DNA of 51,973 nt, from assembly GCA_027315345.1 (NCBI GenBank), contig DAHUYE010000025.1, forward strand, positions 1-51,973, given 5' to 3'. The position numbers were made by a program, and so were the translations under genes. How positions within the stretch are numbered: position 1 is the first letter of the stretch; each line of letters opens with the position of its first letter. Shown here piece by piece: positions 36,035 through 51,973 of this stretch. Under the pieces are notes generated by a model. The model did no database searches. It was given only the letters and a program-made list of their open reading frames with translations, and was not told the DNA's origin. This stretch comes from Actinomycetota bacterium. GTDB taxonomy: Bacteria; Actinomycetota; Acidimicrobiia; Acidimicrobiales; JAJPHE01.

Positions 36035-38482
36035 ATGCGGACACCTCTCTCCTGGTTGCGCGACTTCGCGCCGATCGACGCCGACGCCGACGTCGACCGT
36101 CTGACCGAGCTGCTCAACGAGCTCGGCCTGGTGGTCGACGGGGTCAGCCGCGTCGGGGAGGGCCTGGATGGGGTGGTGGTGGCCCGGGTGGAGGAGATCC
36201 ACGCCATCGAAGGGGCCGACCGGATCCGGGCCGTGGTGGTGGACGTGGCCGGTACGCCCACCCACGTGGTCTGCGGGGCCTGGAACTTCTCCGTCGGTGA
36301 CCTGGTCCCCCTGGCCCAGGTGGGCACGGTCCTCCCGGGCGCCGACTTCGCCATCGCCCGGCGCAAGATGCGGGGGGCCGAGTCCAACGGGATGCTCTGT
36401 TCCGGAGCCGAACTCGGCCTGTCCGCCGACCACGCCGGCATCCTGGTCCTGCCCGAAGGACTGGAGACGGGCCGGGCCTTCACCGAGGCCATCGGCCTGT
36501 CACCGGACGTGGTCTTCGACCTCGACATCACCGCCAACCGGCCCGACGCCATGAGCGTGGCCGGGGTGGCCCGGGATCTGGCCGCGGCGCTGCGGATTCC
36601 CTTTGCCGTGCCCGCCCGTCCCGGTCCCCCCGGTTCGGAGCCGGCCGGGGCGGCGCCAGTGGGTCCGCCGGCCGGTCCGGGTTCAACTCCGGGGGCGGGG
36701 GAGCGCGATTCGACCACGGGGGCGCGGGTGGGAACCGAGGATGCGTCGCTCTGCCCGCTGTTCACGGCCCGGGTGGTCGAAGGGGTCACGGTCGGGACGT
36801 CCCCGGCCTGGCTGACCACCCGCCTGACCCTGGCCGGCATGCGCTCCATCAACTCGGTGGTGGACGCCTCCAACTACGTGATGCTGGAACTGGGCCAGCC
36901 CACCCACCCCTACGACCTCGACCTCCTCCCCGGTCCGGCGCTGGTGGCCCGGGCCGCCCGGCCGGGCGAGACGCTCAAGACCCTCGACGGGGTGGAACGC
37001 ACCCTCGGTACGGGTGCTCATCCCGATTGCGTCATCACCGACGGGGACGACCGGGTGGTGGGCATCGGCGGGGTCATGGGTGGCGAGTCCTCGGAGATCT
37101 CGGCCCGGACCACCCGGGTGCTGGTGGAGGCGGCTTACTTCGCCCCCATGGCCGTGGCCCGCACCTCCAAGCGGCTGGGCCTGCGCAGTGAGGCTTCGGC
37201 CCGCTTCGAGCGGGGGACGGACCCTGACATCGCCGCCGCCTGCGCCGACCGCGTGGCCGCTCTGGCCGCCGGGGCGGGGGGGACGCTGGGCGCCGGTCTG
37301 TCCACCGGCCGGACACCGGCCCACTCCCGGATCCGCCTGCGCACCAGCCGGGTCAACGCCCTGTTGGGCACCGACCTGGGTGACGCCGTCGTGCACGGCC
37401 ACCTCCAGCGGATCGGCTTCGGGATCGCGGAACTTTCCCCAGGCGAGGCCGAGGTGGAAGTCCCTGGCTGGCGGCCCGACGTCACCGCCGAAGTCGACCT
37501 CATCGAGGAGGTGGCCCGTCACCACGGCTACGCCCAGGTGACCCGGACCGTCCCCACCACCACCCAGGTGGGCCGGCTCAGCCCCTACCAACGGGACCGC
37601 CGGCTCCTGCGCCAGGTGGTGGCCGGTGCTGGGCTGGTGGAGGCGTGGACGCCGTCACTGCTCGGTCCCGATGACCACGGCCTGGTCGGCCGCCCCGAGG
37701 AGGCTCCCGGCCTTGCTCTGACCAATCCCATGACCCGGGAGGAGTCGGAGCTGCGCCGGACCATGATGCCCGGGCTGCTGCGGGCGGTGCGGTTCAACGT
37801 CGGCCACCGCAACGAGAACATCCGCCTGTTCGAGGTCGGCCAGGTCTTCGCCCCTCCGGCGGGCGGGCGGGGTCTGCCCGATGAGCATGAACAGCTGGCC
37901 GCCGTTCTGGCCGGCCCGGGGGACGACGCCCCCGCCGCCGTGCGGCTGTGGCGCACCCTGGCCGACGGTCTGCGCCTCCGGGAGCCCGGCATCCGGGCCG
38001 CCGCCCCCCCCGGGTTGCATCCCACCCGGTCCGGGGAGCTCACGGCCGGGGCGGCGGTGGTCGGTGTGATCGGGGAGGTGGATCCGGCCGTGGCCGCCGC
38101 CTTCGGCCTGGAGGGCCGGCTGGGCTGGCTCCAAGTCGACCTGGAGGCGCTGGCCGGGGCCGAGCGCCGCCCGGCCGCCACCGCCGAGGTCTCCGTCTAC
38201 CCCTCCTCCGATGTCGACCTGGCCTTCGTGGTGGACGAAGCCGTCCCCGCCTCAGAGGTTGAGTCCACCCTGCGCCGAGCCGCCGGTGATCTCCTCATCG
38301 GCCTGCGCCTCTTCGATGTCTTCCGGGACGAGGCCCTCCTGGGGCCGGCCCGGCGCAGCCTGGCCTGGAGCCTGCGCTTCTGCGCTTTGGACCACACCCT
38401 CACCGACGCCGAAGTCGCCTCCCTCCGCCAGACCTGCGTGGACGCCGTTCAGTCCTCCCACCCCGCCGTCCTCCGGGGCTGA
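36035..38482 (+). CDS. pheT: Phenylalanine-tRNA ligase beta subunit
   Basis: 815 residues. Begins RTPLSWLRDFAPID; then the tRNA-binding EMAP domain (~40-150), B3/B4 editing domain (~240-400), B5 domain (~405-475), the catalytic-like core, and the C-terminal anticodon-binding domain starting near EVSVYPSSDVDLAFVVDE. The linker between ~193 and ~235 is unusually long and rich in Pro/Gly/Ala. Separated from pheS by seven bases including AGGCAAGG-like purines. Confidence 0.96.
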   Translation: MRTPLSWLRDFAPIDADADVDRLTELLNELGLVVDGVSRVGEGLDGVVVARVEEIHAIEGADRIRAVVVDVAGTPTHVVCGAWNFSVGDLVPLAQVGTVLPGADFAIARRKMRGAESNGMLCSGAELGLSADHAGILVLPEGLETGRAFTEAIGLSPDVVFDLDITANRPDAMSVAGVARDLAAALRIPFAVPARPGPPGSEPAGAAPVGPPAGPGSTPGAGERDSTTGARVGTEDASLCPLFTARVVEGVTVGTSPAWLTTRLTLAGMRSINSVVDASNYVMLELGQPTHPYDLDLLPGPALVARAARPGETLKTLDGVERTLGTGAHPDCVITDGDDRVVGIGGVMGGESSEISARTTRVLVEAAYFAPMAVARTSKRLGLRSEASARFERGTDPDIAAACADRVAALAAGAGGTLGAGLSTGRTPAHSRIRLRTSRVNALLGTDLGDAVVHGHLQRIGFGIAELSPGEAEVEVPGWRPDVTAEVDLIEEVARHHGYAQVTRTVPTTTQVGRLSPYQRDRRLLRQVVAGAGLVEAWTPSLLGPDDHGLVGRPEEAPGLALTNPMTREESELRRTMMPGLLRAVRFNVGHRNENIRLFEVGQVFAPPAGGRGLPDEHEQLAAVLAGPGDDAPAAVRLWRTLADGLRLREPGIRAAAPPGLHPTRSGELTAGAAVVGVIGEVDPAVAAAFGLEGRLGWLQVDLEALAGAERRPAATAEVSVYPSSDVDLAFVVDEAVPASEVESTLRRAAGDLLIGLRLFDVFRDEALLGPARRSLAWSLRFCALDHTLTDAEVASLRQTCVDAVQSSHPAVLRG

Positions 38483-38509
38483 GCGCCGGCCACCCGTCCG
38501 GTGATTCCT

Positions 38510-38525
38510 CTGCATGATTATGCAG
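38510..38525 (+). promoter_or_regulatory. ARG box (ArgR operator) before argC
   Basis: Perfect 16-base palindrome CTGCATGATTATGCAG, with half sites CTGCAT and ATGCAG around GATT. It fits the ARG-box pattern of AT-containing GCAT/ATGC half sites, stands out in an otherwise GC-rich gap, and lies just upstream of the argC -10 element. ArgR, encoded in the same operon, should bind here with arginine as corepressor. Confidence 0.8.
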
Positions 38526-38532
38526 GGTCGTG

Positions 38533-38538
38533 TATGGT
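38533..38538 (+). promoter_or_regulatory. -10 element of the argC promoter
   Basis: TATGGT, 6 bases before GTG 38545. The -35 position would fall at 38510-38515, inside the ARG box, so ArgR binding would block polymerase directly. The distance to the start codon implies a leaderless mRNA. Confidence 0.55.
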
Positions 38539-38544
38539 GGCGGG

Positions 38545-39558
38545 GTGAACGTCGGGATCATCGGGGCGCCGGGCTACACCGGGGCGGAGCTGTTGCGGAT
38601 GCTCGTCGAGCACCCGTCCCTCAAGGTCACCGTGGCCACCGCCGACAGCCACTCCGGCCAGGGGGCCGCCGAGCTGTACCCCAGCCTGGCCGCCGCCTAT
38701 CCCGACCTGGTGTATTCGGCCACGGACGTCGAGCGGCTGGACGGGTTGGATCTGGTCTTCCTGGCCATGCCCCACGGGCAGTCCCAGGCCCTGGTTCCGG
38801 AACTGGCCGGCCGGGTCGGCCACCTGGTCGATCTGGCCGCCGACTTCCGGCTCAAGGACGCTTCGCTCTATCCCACCTGGTACGGGGCCGAGCACCGGGC
38901 TCCCGAGTGGCTGAAGCGCTTCGCCTTCGGCCTCCCGGAGCTGTTCCGTTCCGAGCTCACCGGGGCGCCTCTGATTGCGGCCGCCGGCTGTTACGTCACC
39001 GCCGCCGCCCTGGCCCTGGCCCCCTTCGTGCGGGCCGGATTGGTGGAGACCACCGGGATCATCGTCGATGCTGCCAGCGGAACCTCGGGATCGGGCCGGG
39101 GGCTGCGGGACTCCATGCACTTCGCCCACGTGGACGGGGACTTCAGCGCCTACGGGCTGCTTGATCACCGCCACACCCCCGAGATGGAACAGGCCATCGG
39201 GGCCCAGATCCTCTTCACGCCGCACCTGGCTCCCATGACCCGGGGCATCCTGGCCACCTGTTACGCCCGGCCCGCCGGCGTGTCCACCACCGCCGAGGCC
39301 ATCGAGGTGCTGCAGACCGCCTACAGGTCCGAACCGTTCGTGGTGGTGACGGAGGCTCCGTCCGGGACCAAGGCCACCTTCGGATCCAACTGTGCCCATG
39401 TCACCGCCCGGGTCGATCCGCGCACCGGCTGGCTGGTAGTGCTCTGCGCCCTCGACAACCTGGTCAAGGGAGCCTCCGGACAGGCGCTGCAGTGCGCCAA
39501 CCTCGCCCTCGGCCTGCCCGAGACGGCCGGCCTCCCCATGGCGGCGGTGTACCCGTGA
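38545..39558 (+). CDS. argC: N-acetyl-gamma-glutamyl-phosphate reductase
   Basis: 337 residues from GTG 38545; GTG 38530 would place the start before the -10 box. NADPH-dependent reduction of N-acetylglutamyl phosphate. Rossmann motif GIIGAPGYTGAELLRML at the N-terminus, catalytic Cys149 in AAAGCYVTA, and the HRHTPEMEQ segment. First gene of the arginine operon. Confidence 0.97.
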   Translation: MNVGIIGAPGYTGAELLRMLVEHPSLKVTVATADSHSGQGAAELYPSLAAAYPDLVYSATDVERLDGLDLVFLAMPHGQSQALVPELAGRVGHLVDLAADFRLKDASLYPTWYGAEHRAPEWLKRFAFGLPELFRSELTGAPLIAAAGCYVTAAALALAPFVRAGLVETTGIIVDAASGTSGSGRGLRDSMHFAHVDGDFSAYGLLDHRHTPEMEQAIGAQILFTPHLAPMTRGILATCYARPAGVSTTAEAIEVLQTAYRSEPFVVVTEAPSGTKATFGSNCAHVTARVDPRTGWLVVLCALDNLVKGASGQALQCANLALGLPETAGLPMAAVYP

Positions 39559-39643
39559 GCGAGACCGGCCTGGCCAGTTCCAGGTCCAGCGCAGTGGACC
39601 GGGGGACGGCGACGGCCGCCGCCGGGACGGGTCGGGTGACGCC

Positions 39644-40813
39644 GTGGGTGTGACCACGCCGGCCGGCTTCCGGGCCGCCGGACTGGCCATCGGCATCAAG
39701 GACGGCTCGGTGCCGGACCTGGCCGTGGTCAGCACCGATGACGGCCGGCCGGTGAACGCCGCCGGGGTGTTCACCTCCAACCTGGCCGCCGCCGCTCCGG
39801 TGCAGGTCAGCCGGGCCCACCTGGCCACCACCGGCGGCCGGGCCGCCGCCGTCGTCCTCAACAGCGGGAACGCCAACGCCGCCACCGGGGAGACCGGGCG
39901 CCGGGACGCCAGGCGCATGGCCGAGTTGACCGCCGCCGGCCTGGGTTGTGCCCCCGAGGAGGTGCTGGTCTGTTCCACCGGGCTGATCGGGTTCTACCTG
40001 CCGGCCCAGTGCCTGGAGACCGGGATCCCGGCTGCCGTCGGCGCGCTGGCGTCATCCGAGGAAGCCGGGGTGGCCGCCGCCCGGGCCATCATGACCACCG
40101 ACACCCGGATGAAGACGACCGACGTCGACGGGGGCGGCTTCCGCATCGGGGGGATGGCCAAGGGGGCGGCCATGCTGGCTCCCAACATGGCCACCATGCT
40201 GGCCGTGCTCACCACCGACGCCGCCGTCGAGGCCGGGGATCTGGCCGCCGCCCTGGGCCGGGCCGTGGCCGGTTCCTTCAACGAGATGACCCTGGACGGG
40301 GCCACCTCCACCAACGACACCGTGCTGGTCCTGGCCTCGGGCCGGGCCGGGCCGGCGCCCCTGGTCCGGCTGGAGGAAGCCCTGGGGCAGGCCTGTGAGG
40401 ACCTGTCCGCCCAGATGGCCGCCGATGCCGAGGGCGGCACCCGGGTGGCGACCATCCGAGTCACCGGCGCCCGCAGCCAGGCCGAGGCCGCCGCCGGGGC
40501 CAGGAAGGTGGCCGAGAGCCAGTTGGTCCAGTGTTCGCTCCACGGAGGCGACCCCTACTGGGGCCGGATCGTCAGCGAGCTGGGCTCGGCCGGCATCGGC
40601 TTCGACATCGACCGGGTATCGGTGGCCTACGGCGGGCACGTGGTGTGCCGGGCCGGCGTGGCCGCCGAGCACGATCGGGCTGCGGTGAGCGCCCACCTGC
40701 AGGGGGTCAAGGTGGAGGTGTCCGCCGACCTCGGCCTGGGCCCGGGGGCGGCCCGGATCGTCACCCGGGATCTCACCGCCGACTACATCCTCGAGAACGA
40801 GCGCACCTCATGA
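39644..40813 (+). CDS. argJ: Glutamate N-acetyltransferase (ArgJ, self-cleaving)
   Basis: 389 residues. Recycles the acetyl group between N-acetylornithine and glutamate; bifunctional members also use acetyl-CoA. The precursor self-cleaves before Thr184 in APNMATML, giving alpha and beta chains; LNSGNANAATG and DGATSTNDT are other signatures. No argE-type deacetylase is in the window, consistent with the cyclic pathway. An 85-base gap to argC has no clear signal. The stop overlaps argB (ATGA). Confidence 0.96.
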   Translation: MGVTTPAGFRAAGLAIGIKDGSVPDLAVVSTDDGRPVNAAGVFTSNLAAAAPVQVSRAHLATTGGRAAAVVLNSGNANAATGETGRRDARRMAELTAAGLGCAPEEVLVCSTGLIGFYLPAQCLETGIPAAVGALASSEEAGVAAARAIMTTDTRMKTTDVDGGGFRIGGMAKGAAMLAPNMATMLAVLTTDAAVEAGDLAAALGRAVAGSFNEMTLDGATSTNDTVLVLASGRAGPAPLVRLEEALGQACEDLSAQMAADAEGGTRVATIRVTGARSQAEAAAGARKVAESQLVQCSLHGGDPYWGRIVSELGSAGIGFDIDRVSVAYGGHVVCRAGVAAEHDRAAVSAHLQGVKVEVSADLGLGPGAARIVTRDLTADYILENERTS

Positions 40814-41670
40814 GCGCCCTTACCAACCCCGACGTCACCGCCGCCGTCCTGGCCGAGGCCCTGCCCTACATCCGGCGCTTCTGGGGACGGGTGGTGGTGG
40901 TCAAGTACGGCGGCAACGCCATGGACGATGACGAATCGCTCCCGCAGTTTGCCCAGGACATCGCCCTGATGCGATCGGTGGGACTGCACCCGGTGGTCGT
41001 GCACGGCGGCGGCCCCCAGATCGGTGACCTCATGGCCCGGCTGGGCAAGACGCCGGAGTTCCGGGACGGCCTTCGGGTCACCGACGCCGAAACTCTCGAC
41101 ATCGCCCGGATGGTGCTGGTGGGCAAGGTCAACCGGGACATCGTGAGCGCCATCAACGTCCATGTCCCCATGGCAGTGGGACTGTCGGGCGAGGACGCCG
41201 GGCTGATCCGGGCCACCGCCCGCCAGGCCGACCTCGGTTTCGTGGGCGATGTCGAGGCAGTGGACGCCGGCATCCTGCACAAGCTGCTGGCCCAGGAACT
41301 CATCCCGGTGGTGGCCACCATTGCCTCGGACCGCTCCGGCCAGGCCTACAACATCAACGCCGACACCGCCGCCGCTGAGGTGGCGTCGGCCCTCGGAGCG
41401 GAGAAGCTGGTCTTTCTGACCAACGTCAAAGGGGTGCTGGCCGATCCGGATGACCCCGACAGCCTGGTGAACCGGGTCACGGTGGGAGAGGTGGAGAAGA
41501 TGATGATCGACGGCACCCTGAGTGGAGGGATGATCCCCAAGATGGAGGCCTGCGTCACCGCCGTGCGCCAGGGGGTGAACCGGGCCCACATCATCGACGG
41601 CCGGGTGCCCCACGCCCTGCTGCTGGAGTTCTTCACCGACCAGGGCGTCGGCACCATGGTGGAGCCGTGA
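40810..41670 (+). CDS. argB: Acetylglutamate kinase
   Basis: 286 residues. Phosphorylates N-acetylglutamate; in the cyclic pathway it is usually the arginine-inhibited step. Signatures: VVVKYGGNAM, VVVHGGGPQIGDLM, YNINADTAAAEVASAL and GGMIPKMEAC. The N-terminal helix (ALPYIRRFWG) that mediates hexamer formation and arginine sensing is present. Confidence 0.97.
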   Translation: MSALTNPDVTAAVLAEALPYIRRFWGRVVVVKYGGNAMDDDESLPQFAQDIALMRSVGLHPVVVHGGGPQIGDLMARLGKTPEFRDGLRVTDAETLDIARMVLVGKVNRDIVSAINVHVPMAVGLSGEDAGLIRATARQADLGFVGDVEAVDAGILHKLLAQELIPVVATIASDRSGQAYNINADTAAAEVASALGAEKLVFLTNVKGVLADPDDPDSLVNRVTVGEVEKMMIDGTLSGGMIPKMEACVTAVRQGVNRAHIIDGRVPHALLLEFFTDQGVGTMVEP

Positions 41671-42908
41671 GCCCGTCCGCCGCCGCCGCCGCCGAGCGGT
41701 CCTACTGGCCGCTGATGCCGTATCCGCAGCCTGCCGTCACCTTTGTCCGGGGCTCGGGCTCCGAGTTGTGGGACGACCAGGGCCGGCGCTATCTCGACTT
41801 TCTGGCCGGCGTCGCCGTCTGTTCCCTGGGTCATTCCCATCCCCGGGTGGCCGAGGCCGTGTGCACCCAGGCCGGCCGGCTCCAGCATGTGTCCAACCTG
41901 TTCGGCAACGAGCTGGCCCCCCAGCTGGCCGAGGAGATCGACACCCTGATCGGGGACGGCACCCGGGCCGGGGGCAAGGTCTTCTTCTCCAACTCCGGCG
42001 CCGAGGCCAACGAGTGCGCCTTCAAGGTGGCCCGGCGCTGGGCCGGCCACGGTCGTTACGTGGTGATCAGCGCCTACGGTTCGTTCCACGGCCGGACCCT
42101 GGCCACTCTCCACGCCACCGGCCAGCCGGCCAAGCACGAGATCTTCCAGCCCCTGCCCGAAGGTTTCCGGCACGTGGCCTGGGCCGAGCCGGAAGCGCTG
42201 ATCGACGCCATCGACCCGTCCACGGCGGCGGTGTTACTCGAGCCGGTGCAGGGGGAGAGCGGGGTCAACCCGGCGCCCCCCGGTTATCTGGCTGCGGTGC
42301 GCAAGCTCTGCGACGAACGGGGAGTGCTGCTGATACTGGACGAGGTTCAGACCGGGTTGGGCCGGACCGGGCGCTGGTTCGGCTTCCACCATGACGAGGT
42401 CAAGCCCGACATCGTCACCATGGCCAAAGCCCTCGGCAACGGCATGCCGATCGGGGCGTGCTGGGCCCGCCGGGAGGTGGCCGACGCCCTGTTACCGGGC
42501 GAACATGCCACCACCTTCGGGGGTCAGCCCCTGGCCGCCTCGGCCGCCCTGGCCACCCTGGCGGTGATGCGGGAGGAGAACATCCCGGCCCGGGCCGCCC
42601 GGATGGGGGAGATCCTGGCCGGCGGCCTGGCCCGGATCCCGGGGGTGGTCAAGGTCCGGGGCCGGGGCCTGCTGCTGGCGGCCGTGCTGGCCGAGCCCCG
42701 CTCGGCCGAGGTGGCCGCCCGGGCCCTGGAGACGGGTCTGGTCGTCAACGCCGTCGCCCCCGACGCCATCCGGCTGGCCCCACCGCTGCTGGTCAGTGAG
42801 GCCGAGATCGATGAGGCGGTCAGCTTGCTGGCCGACGCCGTGTTGTCGACCAATAGTGGAACCGTCTCCGGTACGGATGTACGCACGGACAGGGAGGCCA
42901 AGTCATGA
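41667..42908 (+). CDS. argD: Acetylornithine aminotransferase
   Basis: 413 residues. PLP-dependent class III aminotransferase converting N-acetylglutamate semialdehyde to N-acetylornithine. Signatures: FFSNSGAEANECAFKVAR, LILDEVQTGLGRTGRWF and the PLP Lys in VTMAKALGNGMPIGA. GTG start overlaps argB by four bases and the end overlaps argF (ATGA). Confidence 0.96.
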   Translation: MSPSAAAAAERSYWPLMPYPQPAVTFVRGSGSELWDDQGRRYLDFLAGVAVCSLGHSHPRVAEAVCTQAGRLQHVSNLFGNELAPQLAEEIDTLIGDGTRAGGKVFFSNSGAEANECAFKVARRWAGHGRYVVISAYGSFHGRTLATLHATGQPAKHEIFQPLPEGFRHVAWAEPEALIDAIDPSTAAVLLEPVQGESGVNPAPPGYLAAVRKLCDERGVLLILDEVQTGLGRTGRWFGFHHDEVKPDIVTMAKALGNGMPIGACWARREVADALLPGEHATTFGGQPLAASAALATLAVMREENIPARAARMGEILAGGLARIPGVVKVRGRGLLLAAVLAEPRSAEVAARALETGLVVNAVAPDAIRLAPPLLVSEAEIDEAVSLLADAVLSTNSGTVSGTDVRTDREAKS

Positions 42909-43813
42909 CCCGACACTTCCTGGAGGTGGATGACCTCAGCCGGGCCGAACTGGCCGAGGTCCTGGACCTGGCCGCGCAGCGCGACTATCCCCAGGTGCTG
43001 GCCCGTCGGGGCGTGGCCCTGCTGTTCGAAAAGCCCTCGGCCCGGACCCGCAACTCCACCGAGGTGGCCGTGTTCCAGCTGGGAGGCCACCCGGTCACCA
43101 TCCGGGGCGAGGAGGTCGGCCTCGACACCCGGGAGCCGGCCGAAGACGTGGCCCGGGTCCTGGCCGGTTACCACGCCGCCATCGGGGGGCGGGTCATGGA
43201 CCACCACACCCTGGAGCGCATGGTGGCCGCCATCGACGGCGCCGGGATGACCGTGCCGGTGTTCAACCTCCTGTCCGACCGGGCCCATCCCTGCCAGGCG
43301 GTGGCTGACGTCCTCACCATCAGGGAGGCTCTGGGCGGGACCGAAGGGGTTCAGATCGCCTACGTCGGGGACGGTAACAACATGGCCCGATCCCTGGCCC
43401 GGGCCGCCGCCCTGGTGGGCGCCTCCATCATCCTGGCCACCCCCGAGGGGTACTCCCTGCCGGCCTCTGACATCGAGGCGGTGAGGGCCATCGGGGGTGC
43501 CATCGAGGTCACCACCCAGCCGGAGGAGGCGGTCAAGGGCGCTGACGTTGTCTATACCGACGTGTGGACCTCCATGGGCCAGGAGGCCGAGGCCCAGGCT
43601 CGCCGGGCCGCCTTCACCGGCTTCATGGTGGACCAACGCCTCATCGACCTGGCCTCCCCCGAGGTGCTCGTCATGCACTGCCTGCCCGCCCACCGGGGCG
43701 AGGAGATCAGCGCCGAGGTGGTCGACGGCCCCCGCAGTGTCGTCTGGCACCAGGCCGCCAACCGCATGCACTCCGTCCGGGGCCTGATCGCCTGGCTGAT
43801 AGCTCGTGCCTAA
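42905..43813 (+). CDS. argF: Ornithine carbamoyltransferase
   Basis: 302 residues. Makes citrulline from ornithine and carbamoyl phosphate supplied by carAB. Carbamoyl-phosphate motif is SARTRNS (Ala replacing the first Thr of STRTR, a known variant), then HPCQAVAD and the ornithine-binding MHCLPAHRG. The DLLSDRAHPCQ region appears intact. The end overlaps argR by eight bases. Confidence 0.96.
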   Translation: MTRHFLEVDDLSRAELAEVLDLAAQRDYPQVLARRGVALLFEKPSARTRNSTEVAVFQLGGHPVTIRGEEVGLDTREPAEDVARVLAGYHAAIGGRVMDHHTLERMVAAIDGAGMTVPVFNLLSDRAHPCQAVADVLTIREALGGTEGVQIAYVGDGNNMARSLARAAALVGASIILATPEGYSLPASDIEAVRAIGGAIEVTTQPEEAVKGADVVYTDVWTSMGQEAEAQARRAAFTGFMVDQRLIDLASPEVLVMHCLPAHRGEEISAEVVDGPRSVVWHQAANRMHSVRGLIAWLIARA

Positions 43814-44267
43814 GAACCAGAGGCAGCACCGGATCAGTCGGATCCTGGAACAGCACGCCGTGAGCAGCCAGGCCGAACTGGTCGAACTGCTGGGGGCCGA
43901 AGGGGTAATGGCGACCCAGGCCACCGTGTCCCGGGACCTGGAGGATCTGGGGGCGGTCAAGGTCAGGGTGCCGGGAGGGGAGACCGTCTACGCCATCCCC
44001 GAGGTGACCAAGGACCGCTTCGCCCCCGAGGACCATCTGCGCCGGGTGCTGGGGGACTGGGTGGTGGAAGTGGCCCACTCCGTCAACCTGGTGGTGGTGC
44101 GCACCCCGCCCGGCTCGGCCCACGTGGTGGCCTCCGCCCTGGACCGATCCGGTCTCGACGGCATGCTCGGCACGGTGGCCGGTGATGACACCATCGTGGT
44201 GGTGGCCGCCGAGAAGATGGGTGGCGCCGGGCTGGCGTCCGTACTTTCGTCCCTGGCCGGTCTTTGA
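43806..44267 (+). CDS. argR: Arginine repressor
   Basis: 153 residues. Winged-helix N-terminal domain (RISRILEQHAVSSQAELVELL, ATQATVSRDLEDLGAVKVR) and a C-terminal hexamer and arginine-binding domain with GTVAGDDTIVVV. It should repress argC onward through the palindrome at 38510-38525, so the operon carries its own repressor. GTG start overlaps argF. Confidence 0.96.
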   Translation: MPKNQRQHRISRILEQHAVSSQAELVELLGAEGVMATQATVSRDLEDLGAVKVRVPGGETVYAIPEVTKDRFAPEDHLRRVLGDWVVEVAHSVNLVVVRTPPGSAHVVASALDRSGLDGMLGTVAGDDTIVVVAAEKMGGAGLASVLSSLAGL

Positions 44268-44310: not shown

Positions 44311-44325
44311 CCCCAAGGAGATGCA

Positions 44326-45522
44326 GTGGCAAAACGGGTAGTGCTGGCCTACAGCGGCGGTCTGGACACTTCGGTGGCGGTGCGCTGGTTGATGGAGGAG
44401 ACCGGCGTCGAGGTGGTGGCGGTGGCCGTCGATGTCGGTCAGGGCGGTGACTTCGAGGCCATCCGGAATCGGGCCCTGGCGGCCGGGGCCGTGGAAGCCG
44501 TGGTGGTCGACGCCCGGCGGGAGTTTGCCGAGGACTTCGTGGTGCCGGCCCTGCGGGCCAACGCCAAATACGAGGGCAAGTATCCGCTCGTATCGGCCTT
44601 GTCCCGGCCCTGCATCGTCAAGCACCTGGTGGCCCAGGCCCGGGAGCACGGCGCCGACGCCGTGTCCCATGGTTGCACCGGTAAGGGCAACGATCAGGTC
44701 CGCTTCGAGGTGTCCACCCGGGCATTGGCCCCGGATCTGGAGACCATCGCCCCGGTGCGGACCTGGGGCCTCACCCGCGAGCAGTCCATCGAGTACGCCG
44801 AGCGCCACAACATCCCCATCACCGTGACCAAGTCCAGCCCGTACTCCATCGACCAGAACCTGTGGGGCCGCACCATTGAGTGCGGGATCCTGGAGGATCC
44901 CTGGGAGCAGCCGCCGGAGGAGGTCTACGAGCTGACCACGCCCACGGCCACCGAGCCCATCGAGATGGTCATCGGGTTCGACCAGGGGGTGCCGGTGTCC
45001 ATCGACGGGCGGTCGCTGCCCCTGGATGAGCTCATCGGTGAAGTCACCCGGGTGGTGGGCTCCTACGGCTGGGGCCGCCTCGACATGATCGAGAACCGCC
45101 GGGTCGGCATCAAGAGCCGGGAGGTCTACGAATGCCCGGGTTCTCTGGCCCTGCTGATGGCGCATTCGGACCTGGAGGACCTGACCCTGGAGCGGGACCT
45201 CTCCCATGAGAAGGCCCGCCTGGAGCCCCGCTACGCCGACCTGGTCTATGACGGGTTGTGGTTCAGCCCCCTCAAAGAGGCCCTGGACGCCTTCGTGGAG
45301 CGCAGCCAGCAGTTCGTCACCGGTGAGGTGCGTCTGCGTTGTGAGCTGCCCGGCCGCTGCCTGGTGGTGGGCCGGCGCAGCGAGGTCGGCCTCTATGACT
45401 ACTCCCTGGCCACCTACGAGGCGGCCGACGCCTTCCGCCACCAGGACGCCGAGGGCTTCGTCCGCCTATGGGGCTTGGGGGTCGAGACGTGGGCGGCCCG
45501 CCAGTCCCGGCGCCGGCCGTGA
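44326..45522 (+). CDS. argG: Argininosuccinate synthase
   Basis: 398 residues from GTG 44326, with AAGGAG five bases upstream. Joins citrulline and aspartate using ATP. The pyrophosphatase loop AYSGGLDTS is at residues 8-16, followed by HGCTGKGNDQVRFE near 118 and KSSPYSIDQNLWGR near 170. An earlier start inside argR gives unrelated residues and is rejected. The stop overlaps the argH GTG (GTGA). Confidence 0.97.
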   Translation: MAKRVVLAYSGGLDTSVAVRWLMEETGVEVVAVAVDVGQGGDFEAIRNRALAAGAVEAVVVDARREFAEDFVVPALRANAKYEGKYPLVSALSRPCIVKHLVAQAREHGADAVSHGCTGKGNDQVRFEVSTRALAPDLETIAPVRTWGLTREQSIEYAERHNIPITVTKSSPYSIDQNLWGRTIECGILEDPWEQPPEEVYELTTPTATEPIEMVIGFDQGVPVSIDGRSLPLDELIGEVTRVVGSYGWGRLDMIENRRVGIKSREVYECPGSLALLMAHSDLEDLTLERDLSHEKARLEPRYADLVYDGLWFSPLKEALDAFVERSQQFVTGEVRLRCELPGRCLVVGRRSEVGLYDYSLATYEAADAFRHQDAEGFVRLWGLGVETWAARQSRRRP

Positions 45523-46904
45523 CTCTCTGGCACGGCCGCTTCGGAGACCAGTCCCCGGCCGACGCCCTCATGGCCCTCAACGAGAGCCTCTCTTTCGACC
45601 GTCGCCTGGCCGCCGATGACATTGTCGGATCCCGGGCCCACGTGCGGGGCCTGAGCCGGGTCGGCCTGCTGGCCGGGACCGAGGTCGAGGCCATCCTCGG
45701 CGCCCTCGACCGGGTGCAGGCGGAGCTGGAGGGCGGGGAGTTCGTCTTCATTCCGTCGGATGAGGACATCCACACCGCCATCGAGCGCCGGGTCACCGAG
45801 TTGGCCGGGCCGGCCGGGGCCAAGCTGCACACCGGCCGCAGTCGCAACGACCAGGTGGCCACCGATCTGCGCCTGTGGGCCCGGCGGGAGCTGGCCGGGG
45901 TGGGGCGCCTGGTGCTCAACCTGCAGCTCACGCTGCTGGCCCGGGCCGAGGAGGTCGAGGACGCCTACCTGCCGGGATACACCCACATGCAGCGGGCCCA
46001 GCCGGTGCTGCTGGCCCATCATCTGCTGGCCCACGGTTGGGCGCTGTCCCGCGATATCGACCGCTTGCTCAGTGTGATCACCCACATGGACTACTGCCCG
46101 CTGGGGGCGGGGGCACTGGCCGGTTCGTCCCTGCCGCTGGACCCGGACGGGGTGGCTACCGACCTCGGCTTCAGCACTCGCTTCGAGAACTCGCTGGATG
46201 CGGTCAGTGACCGGGACTTCGTGGCCGAGGCGCTCTTCGCCGTGGCCCTGCTGTCCATCCATCTGTCCCGGATGGGCGAAGAGGTCGTCATCTGGTCGAG
46301 TTCGGAGTTCGGCTTCGTCGTCCTCGATGATGCCTACGCCACCGGCTCGTCCATGCTGCCCCAGAAGAAGAACCCCGACGTGGCTGAGCTGGCCCGGGGC
46401 AAGGCCGGCCGGCTGATCGGAAACCTGACCGGACTGCTGGCCACCCTCAAGGGTTTACCGCTGTCGTACAACAAGGACCTGCAGGAGGACAAGGAGGCCC
46501 TGTTCGATTCCGTCGATCAGATCCGCCTGGTCCTCTCCGCCCTGACCGGGATGGTCGCCACCGCCCGCTTCGACACGGTCAAGATGAGGGCGGCCGCCGA
46601 TGAGGAGACGGGGGCGGCCGTGGATCTGGCCGAGTGGCTGGTGCAGGAGGGGACCCCCTTTCGGGAGGCCCACGCCGTGGTCGGGGCGCTGGTGCGGGCC
46701 TCACTGGAGCGCCACGTTCCCCTGGCCGAGCTGGTGGAGGCCGATCCGGCCCTGGGCGCCGAGGCCAGGAAGTTGCTGGAGCCGGGCGTGGCGGTGACCC
46801 GGCGGACGTCGCCCGGGGCCGGGGGCCCCGTGGCCGTGGCCGAGCAGCTGACCCGCTTCCGCCAACGGCTGGGGGTGGACACCGACCGCCTCGGCGGGGA
46901 GTGA
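45519..46904 (+). CDS. argH: Argininosuccinate lyase
   Basis: 461 residues from GTG 45519 (VTLWHGRFG, the family N-terminus). Releases arginine and fumarate. Signatures: LHTGRSRNDQVATDLR near 105, PGYTHMQRAQPV near 150 and the mobile catalytic loop GSSMLPQKKNPD at 276-287 with the catalytic Ser. Final biosynthetic gene of the arginine operon. Confidence 0.96.
   Translation: MTLWHGRFGDQSPADALMALNESLSFDRRLAADDIVGSRAHVRGLSRVGLLAGTEVEAILGALDRVQAELEGGEFVFIPSDEDIHTAIERRVTELAGPAGAKLHTGRSRNDQVATDLRLWARRELAGVGRLVLNLQLTLLARAEEVEDAYLPGYTHMQRAQPVLLAHHLLAHGWALSRDIDRLLSVITHMDYCPLGAGALAGSSLPLDPDGVATDLGFSTRFENSLDAVSDRDFVAEALFAVALLSIHLSRMGEEVVIWSSSEFGFVVLDDAYATGSSMLPQKKNPDVAELARGKAGRLIGNLTGLLATLKGLPLSYNKDLQEDKEALFDSVDQIRLVLSALTGMVATARFDTVKMRAAADEETGAAVDLAEWLVQEGTPFREAHAVVGALVRASLERHVPLAELVEADPALGAEARKLLEPGVAVTRRTSPGAGGPVAVAEQLTRFRQRLGVDTDRLGGE

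Positions 46905-51205: not shown

Positions 51206-51973
<768 letters not shown>

Follow-up and report, generated by a model that had tools for sequence, protein, structure and literature searches.

How does the argC promoter described here relate to the arginine operators already known? In E. coli, the arg genes are transcribed into leadered mRNAs and carry boxes of the TGAAT type. According to the accessible parts of two reports, E. coli ARG operators comprise two boxes that overlap the promoter and are bound by ArgR as a repressor, features that we also propose for the locus in our window (the whole stretch of 51,973 nucleotides that was analysed), from which they differ in that their boxes lie 3 bp apart, or 2 in argR (PMC3293853; PMC5839063). 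For Streptomyces, the same parts describe a footprinted argC operator of two 18-nt ARG boxes 2 bp apart in S. clavuligerus, two contiguous 20-bp ARG boxes at argC of S. coelicolor, and ARG-box words that include TGCATGAGTATGCA (argH) (PMC3293853; PMC5839063); single-box sites binding ArgR are also reported there for S. coelicolor (PMC5839063). Measured against this double box, the window has the same distance of 20 bp from centre to centre and the same location before argC, but its second box is without a right half and its -10 element is spaced for a leaderless start.

For leaderless transcription itself, the accessible excerpts describe a TANNNT element about 12 bp before the start as the mark of leaderless genes in Actinobacteria (PMC3160421), and state that one third of the mRNAs of C. 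glutamicum are leaderless, with both ATG and GTG starts in use and 21% of these mRNAs GUG-started (PMC3890552). The argC gene of the window has the element and the spacing of these genes, from which it does not differ in principle, and its -10 element also resembles a repressor half-site. Our literature search, which covered a minority of the subscription papers and not the original S. clavuligerus footprint, returned no account of such a layout for this group, no paper joining ARG box, argC and leaderless, and none joining Acidimicrobi-, leaderless and promoter; what joins leaderless, argC and transcription start site concerns, judged by title, enterobacteria. The component pieces are known, and the layout found here is, as far as sequence can tell, the Streptomyces double-box plan set on a leaderless start.

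In the window, a search with family models gives the gene order argCJBDFRGH, with pheS and pheT in front (Table 1), which puts argR sixth in the argC operon, as the initial annotation had proposed. The alignment to the argC model TIGR01850 begins at residue 1 of the frame opened by GTG 38545; a further in-frame GTG exists at 38530, but lies upstream of the -10 element. A terminator-like site was sought in the pheT-argC interval and none was found. While the genes from argJ to argR overlap or abut, an interval of 85 bp (39559-39643) separates argC from argJ. An AAGGAG at 44315, five bases ahead of the argG GTG 44326, indicates that argG is led by a Shine-Dalgarno (SD) sequence, unlike argC. The true start of argH probably lies further inside its ORF. 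The contig itself ends within a 16S rRNA gene (51206-51973, + strand, model positions 1-778 of 1533), a gene that is a usual break point of assemblies. The ArgR encoded in the genome looks ordinary, as judged from its predicted sequence: the nearest solved sequence is 3ere (identical in 3fhz, 3laj and 3lap), the DNA-binding helix and the arginine-binding GDD motif are both present, and the stretches TQATVSRD and GTVAGDDT both align to the solved ArgR.

Table 1. Features of the argC promoter and the surrounding genes, in window coordinates
Feature	Position	Strand	Basis or remark
pheT	36035..38482	+	end 62 bp upstream of argC
ARG box 1, core TGCATGATTATGCA	38511..38524		arms to 38510-38525; over the -35 position
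ARG box 2, degenerate	38531..38544		centre 20 bp downstream of box 1; 5/10 positions
-10 element TATGGT (TANNNT)	38533..38538	+	sequence read and comparison of order loci
GTG, argC start and predicted transcription start (+1), leaderless	38545..38547	+	argC model, comparison
argC	38545..39558	+	TIGR01850, 364 bits
argJ	39644..40813	+	family-model search and ORF list
argB	40810..41670	+	family-model search (searched stretch from 40807); start ATG 40810
argD	41667..42908	+	family-model search and ORF list
argF	42905..43813	+	family-model search and ORF list
argR, presumed repressor, sixth gene	43806..44267	+	TIGR01529 above cut-off, NF002880 below its own
argG	44326..45522	+	family-model search; start GTG 44326
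argH ORF	45468..46904	+	family-model search

The operator candidate is CTGCATGATTATGCAG at 38510-38525, upstream of TATGGT at 38533-38538. It is an inverted repeat whose 6-bp arms, CTGCAT and ATGCAG, are perfect and enclose the 4-base centre GATT; this centre is not self-complementary, and the minus-strand read of the 16-mer differs at 2 of its 16 positions, so that the "perfect palindrome" of the initial annotation was an overstatement for an element with perfect arms and an asymmetric centre. As the imperfect palindrome TGCATNNNNATGCA, it is present at the promoter of argC, an arginine gene, and in dinucleotide shuffles of the window chance matches to the box with at most 3 mismatches occurred at a mean of 0.02. 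TATGGT is the sole TANNNT within 38471-38560. The 6 bases which had been claimed to separate it from GTG 38545 are read directly from the sequence, and the claim that the box covers the -35 position holds as well: a 17-nt spacer puts the -35 hexamer at 38510-38515, inside CTGCATGATTATGCAG. This hexamer, CTGCAT, is a poor -35, with 2/6 matches to TTGACA, and no promoter was called when 38300-38700 was scanned for the sigma-70 consensus.

Are these spacings a peculiarity of one contig? We searched 59 genomes from 57 families of the same order and found argC in 57 of them. The resulting order set comprises 55 argC loci, one per genome and our own included, and leaves out G050 and G056 (no argC match), G006 and G023 (a fragment without the N-terminus) and a second argC-like piece of G043, L071, whose match starts at residue 73. 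In 39/55 loci a TANNNT is preceded at 21-23 bp by an ARG box, at exactly 22 bp in 35 and at 21 or 23 bp in 4, compared with a mean of 0.84 and a maximum of 3 in 100 shuffles. At the threshold used, this geometry is missing in the other 16/55, a minority with no clear box or with a different spacing, such as 24 in L044, L049, L050 and L070. The loci share ancestry, so that locus counts of this kind are not counts of independent events; the flanking bases, for their part, show almost no residual similarity among the loci. This is also seen in the information content of 52 of the 55 loci aligned on the -10 element, L026, L028 and L065 having been dropped for want of a TANNNT at a gap of 5-10: it does not exceed 0.17 bits upstream of position -23, climbs to 1.05 bits in the half-sites of box 1, then falls, and stands at 0.43 and 0.99 bits in the pair of bases just ahead of the -10 element, whose T, A and T are fixed by the choice of alignment. 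One locus, L062, has a pair of perfect ARG boxes, at 20 bp from each other, entirely upstream of its -10 element, TAGAGT, in a register that differs from most of the order.

The second spacing, from the -10 element to the start codon, is similarly constant. An in-frame start 6-7 bases after a TANNNT is present in 45 of the 55 loci and missing in 10, while shuffled upstream bases gave a mean of 3.28 and a maximum of 7; starts were allowed up to 60 nt upstream in the real and up to 45 nt in the shuffled sequences, with no counted order locus beyond 30. When the 39 loci are picked by box geometry alone, start codons being ignored, an in-frame start follows at gap 6-7 in 34 of them, and the remaining 14 gap pairs, up to 29, are represented by at most 4 loci each. 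Within the protein alignment these 34 starts range from 0 to -30 nt (25 at 0 or -3); as the start varies in place at a fixed gap, the shifted starts track the -10 element and not the protein. Pairing with the anti-SD sequence is on average weak across the order: over 52 loci it is weaker at argC than in shuffles (mean -2.2 versus -3.8 kcal/mol), even though the window's own argC, at -6.0, is not weak. In L028, near 1480-1501, an ATG 7 bases after the -10 element was seen by eye to be out of the argC frame and to open an ORF of six codons, the stop of which overlaps the ATG of argC (ATGA). This ORF could be a leaderless mini-ORF that is coupled to argC, or else an assembly error.

The same signature recurs elsewhere in the genome. 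In a sample of 442 kb (390 kb plus the window), from which 311 ORFs were taken with a rough codon-position filter and no trained gene finder, TANNNT occurs 22 and 18 times at gaps of 6 and 7 bases, 7 and 9 times at gaps of 8 and 9, and 2.0 times per gap in the background at gaps 12-29; a gap of 6-7 is thus found in 40 of the 311 ORFs. Two more such ORFs lie in the window, near 1707 and 22587 on the + strand, each with a GTG start that follows a TANNNT at 6-7 bases, so that argC is not its only leaderless-type gene; from its motifs we take the ORF near 1707 to resemble chorismate synthase. The excess at gaps 6-7 agrees with the leaderless genes described in the accessible parts of PMC3160421 and PMC3890552. 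Taken together, the near-constant distance from the -10 element to the start in most families, the SD-like pairing that is on average weaker than in shuffles and the signature of the own genome favour the leaderless argC suggested by the initial annotation, just as the near-constant distance from box to -10 element in most families sampled speaks for an ArgR-type operator placed over the promoter.

What the initial annotation overlooked is a second, weaker box, whose left half-site is fused with the -10 element. In the window this half-site, TGTAT, consists of the two bases before the -10 element and the first three of the element itself; the right half, GCGGG, is unrecognisable, with 1/5 matches. 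Better copies exist in relatives, for instance L030, L035, L029 and L054. A T stands two bases before the -10 element in 30/52 argC promoters and in 3/40 leaderless-type promoters of the own genome (Fisher p 3e-7), and as the third -10 base in 37/52 and 5/40, respectively (Fisher p 2e-8), p-values that are only a guide because the compared groups differ in make-up (many genomes versus one, the 40 including argC itself). For the right half, ATGCA, which directly precedes the start codon, 10/52 loci match at 4-5 of 5 positions, with 0.66 expected; an example is TGTATAATCATGCA-ATG in L030. In part of the order, box 2 is accordingly read as overlapping the -10 element and adjoining the start codon. 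L030, L035 and L056 suggested that weakness of box 1 is offset by a strong box 2, but over all loci this found no support (Spearman 0.20, p 0.15).

The initial annotation had also proposed to look for the same palindrome elsewhere in the genome. We ran this search on the 3.84-Mb assembly (97.7% complete), in which TGCATNNNTATGCA, contained in CTGCATGATTATGCAG, is unique to argC, with 0 matches for the reversed-pattern control. The wider pattern TGCATNNNNATGCA has 2 zero-mismatch and 28 one-mismatch places, the second zero-mismatch place being TGCATCGGCATGCA on contig C59, within an ORF; at 2 mismatches there are 515 matches on each strand, compared with 270 when the pattern is reversed, which is more than could be sorted. 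When the centre of the pattern was AT-rich, 6 places matched, among them C48, C78 and C99, versus 4 in the reversed control. Of the candidate arginine operators, C59:31682, C4:85759 and C12:6717 lie within ORFs, and C59:109110 was read by eye, on its other strand, as the beginning of a small protein, presumably resembling an FmdB zinc ribbon by its motif. No second arginine operator was thus found among the four non-argC sites whose surroundings were read.

How, then, could the promoter work? We consider it very probable that it is an ArgR operator-promoter of argCJBDFRGH that gives rise to a leaderless argC mRNA and subjects the operon to feedback repression through box 1 and box 2. RNA polymerase would take TATGGT as its -10 element and start at or beside G38545, so that the first codon of the mRNA would be the argC GTG. 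The ArgR hexamer, itself a product of this operon and presumably loaded with arginine, would bind box 1 over the -35 position and may also touch the degenerate box 2 of the window, the left half-site of which would be the -10 element itself; occupation of the boxes would shut polymerase out of the promoter and thereby feed back on ArgR synthesis. The arginine step may fail here too, given that in S. coelicolor, as far as the accessible part of the report goes, arginine caused no significant repression of most arg genes on microarrays, and loss of argR raised the arg genes (PMC3293853).

The proximity of pheT, a same-strand neighbour whose end lies 62 bp ahead of argC with no terminator-like site in between, raises the alternative that argC is expressed mainly by read-through from pheST or from a promoter inside pheT, yielding a leadered mRNA on which the box would act as a roadblock. 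A pheT match does lie upstream of argC in 28 of the 55 order loci, and 17 of the other 27 had less than 700 bp on which to judge. Yet ten loci with at least 700 bp upstream show no pheT match, and among these L022, L027, L033, L034 and L041 retain the gap of 6-7 bases together with the box geometry; the gap is likewise kept in L023, L036 and L044, where 856-1129 bp separate argC from the end of the pheT match, and SD-like pairing at argC is, order-wide, weaker than in shuffles. As the promoter is kept where pheT is far or not found, read-through may add to argC expression but would not explain the promoter, and we regard it as an improbable main source.

The palindrome could, on the other hand, act as RNA, since perfect 6-bp arms around a 4-base loop might fold, in the spacer between pheT and argC, into a hairpin that serves as terminator or attenuator. 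This reading is scarcely credible: the spacer holds no terminator-like site, the sole Rfam match in the window is the 16S rRNA, and the conserved positions fit the ARG-box consensus at a fixed distance from the -10 element, which a hairpin would not need. That a leaderless promoter is controlled through the box by some regulator other than ArgR appears highly improbable as well; the box, of which ArgR is the predicted binder, fits the actinobacterial ARG box and its spacing in the accessible parts of the published descriptions (PMC5839063; PMC3293853), and argR is located in the same operon.

Traces of the proposed ArgR operator-promoter extend beyond the order. A sample of the phylum yielded argC in 108/119 genomes; of these we read 69 loci with the better matches, 66 with a start match (all except L162, L204 and L205) and 5 from the same order, two of which (L152 and L153) were already in the order set. 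Here the box geometry occurs in 25/66 loci, 21 at exactly 22 bp, against a shuffled mean of 1.93 and maximum of 6. Some of these loci are leaderless by signature, such as L156 and L212, the latter with an in-frame ATG at gap 7, while in L213 and L218, which have both boxes, argC apparently starts further down, behind an AGGAGG-like site. In a set of named genomes, which overlaps the order set and is therefore not independent, the geometry was found in 31/79 loci, with Motilibacter deserti and several Frankiales MAGs being leaderless as well; the signature is not general, being missing from the nine loci with alphaproteobacterial names and from actinobacterial loci of this set, for example the two of Virgisporangium, the two of Adlercreutzia and those of Nitriliruptoraceae. 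The best protein matches in named genomes were Actinobacteria, Acidimicrobiales and Actinomycetota MAGs at about 70% identity, very near records possibly being absent. Outside Actinomycetota, L135, from a Clostridia MAG, has the same spacing from box 1 to the -10 element, which is overlain by a good box 2, and its first in-frame start lies 54 bases downstream.

A more far-reaching scenario would treat the argC promoter of the order as a fused element. A C to T change would turn the left half of box 2, TGCAT, into TGTATNNT, which would serve as ArgR half-site and -10 element at once, the box being followed immediately by the start codon. It is possible, if rather doubtful, that such leaderless fused control was the older state in Actinomycetota and that leaders were added later in some lineages.

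The layout is largely the expected version of a known control switch. For an order of mostly uncultured bacteria, the proposed ArgR operator-promoter would nevertheless provide a concrete and conserved arginine switch, in which operator, promoter and translation start are packed into about 40 bp. As the predicted mRNA has no leader, it is at transcription initiation, not within a leader, that control would have to act. The same arrangement fixes the likely start codon of argC at 38545, where the longest-ORF rule gives 38530.
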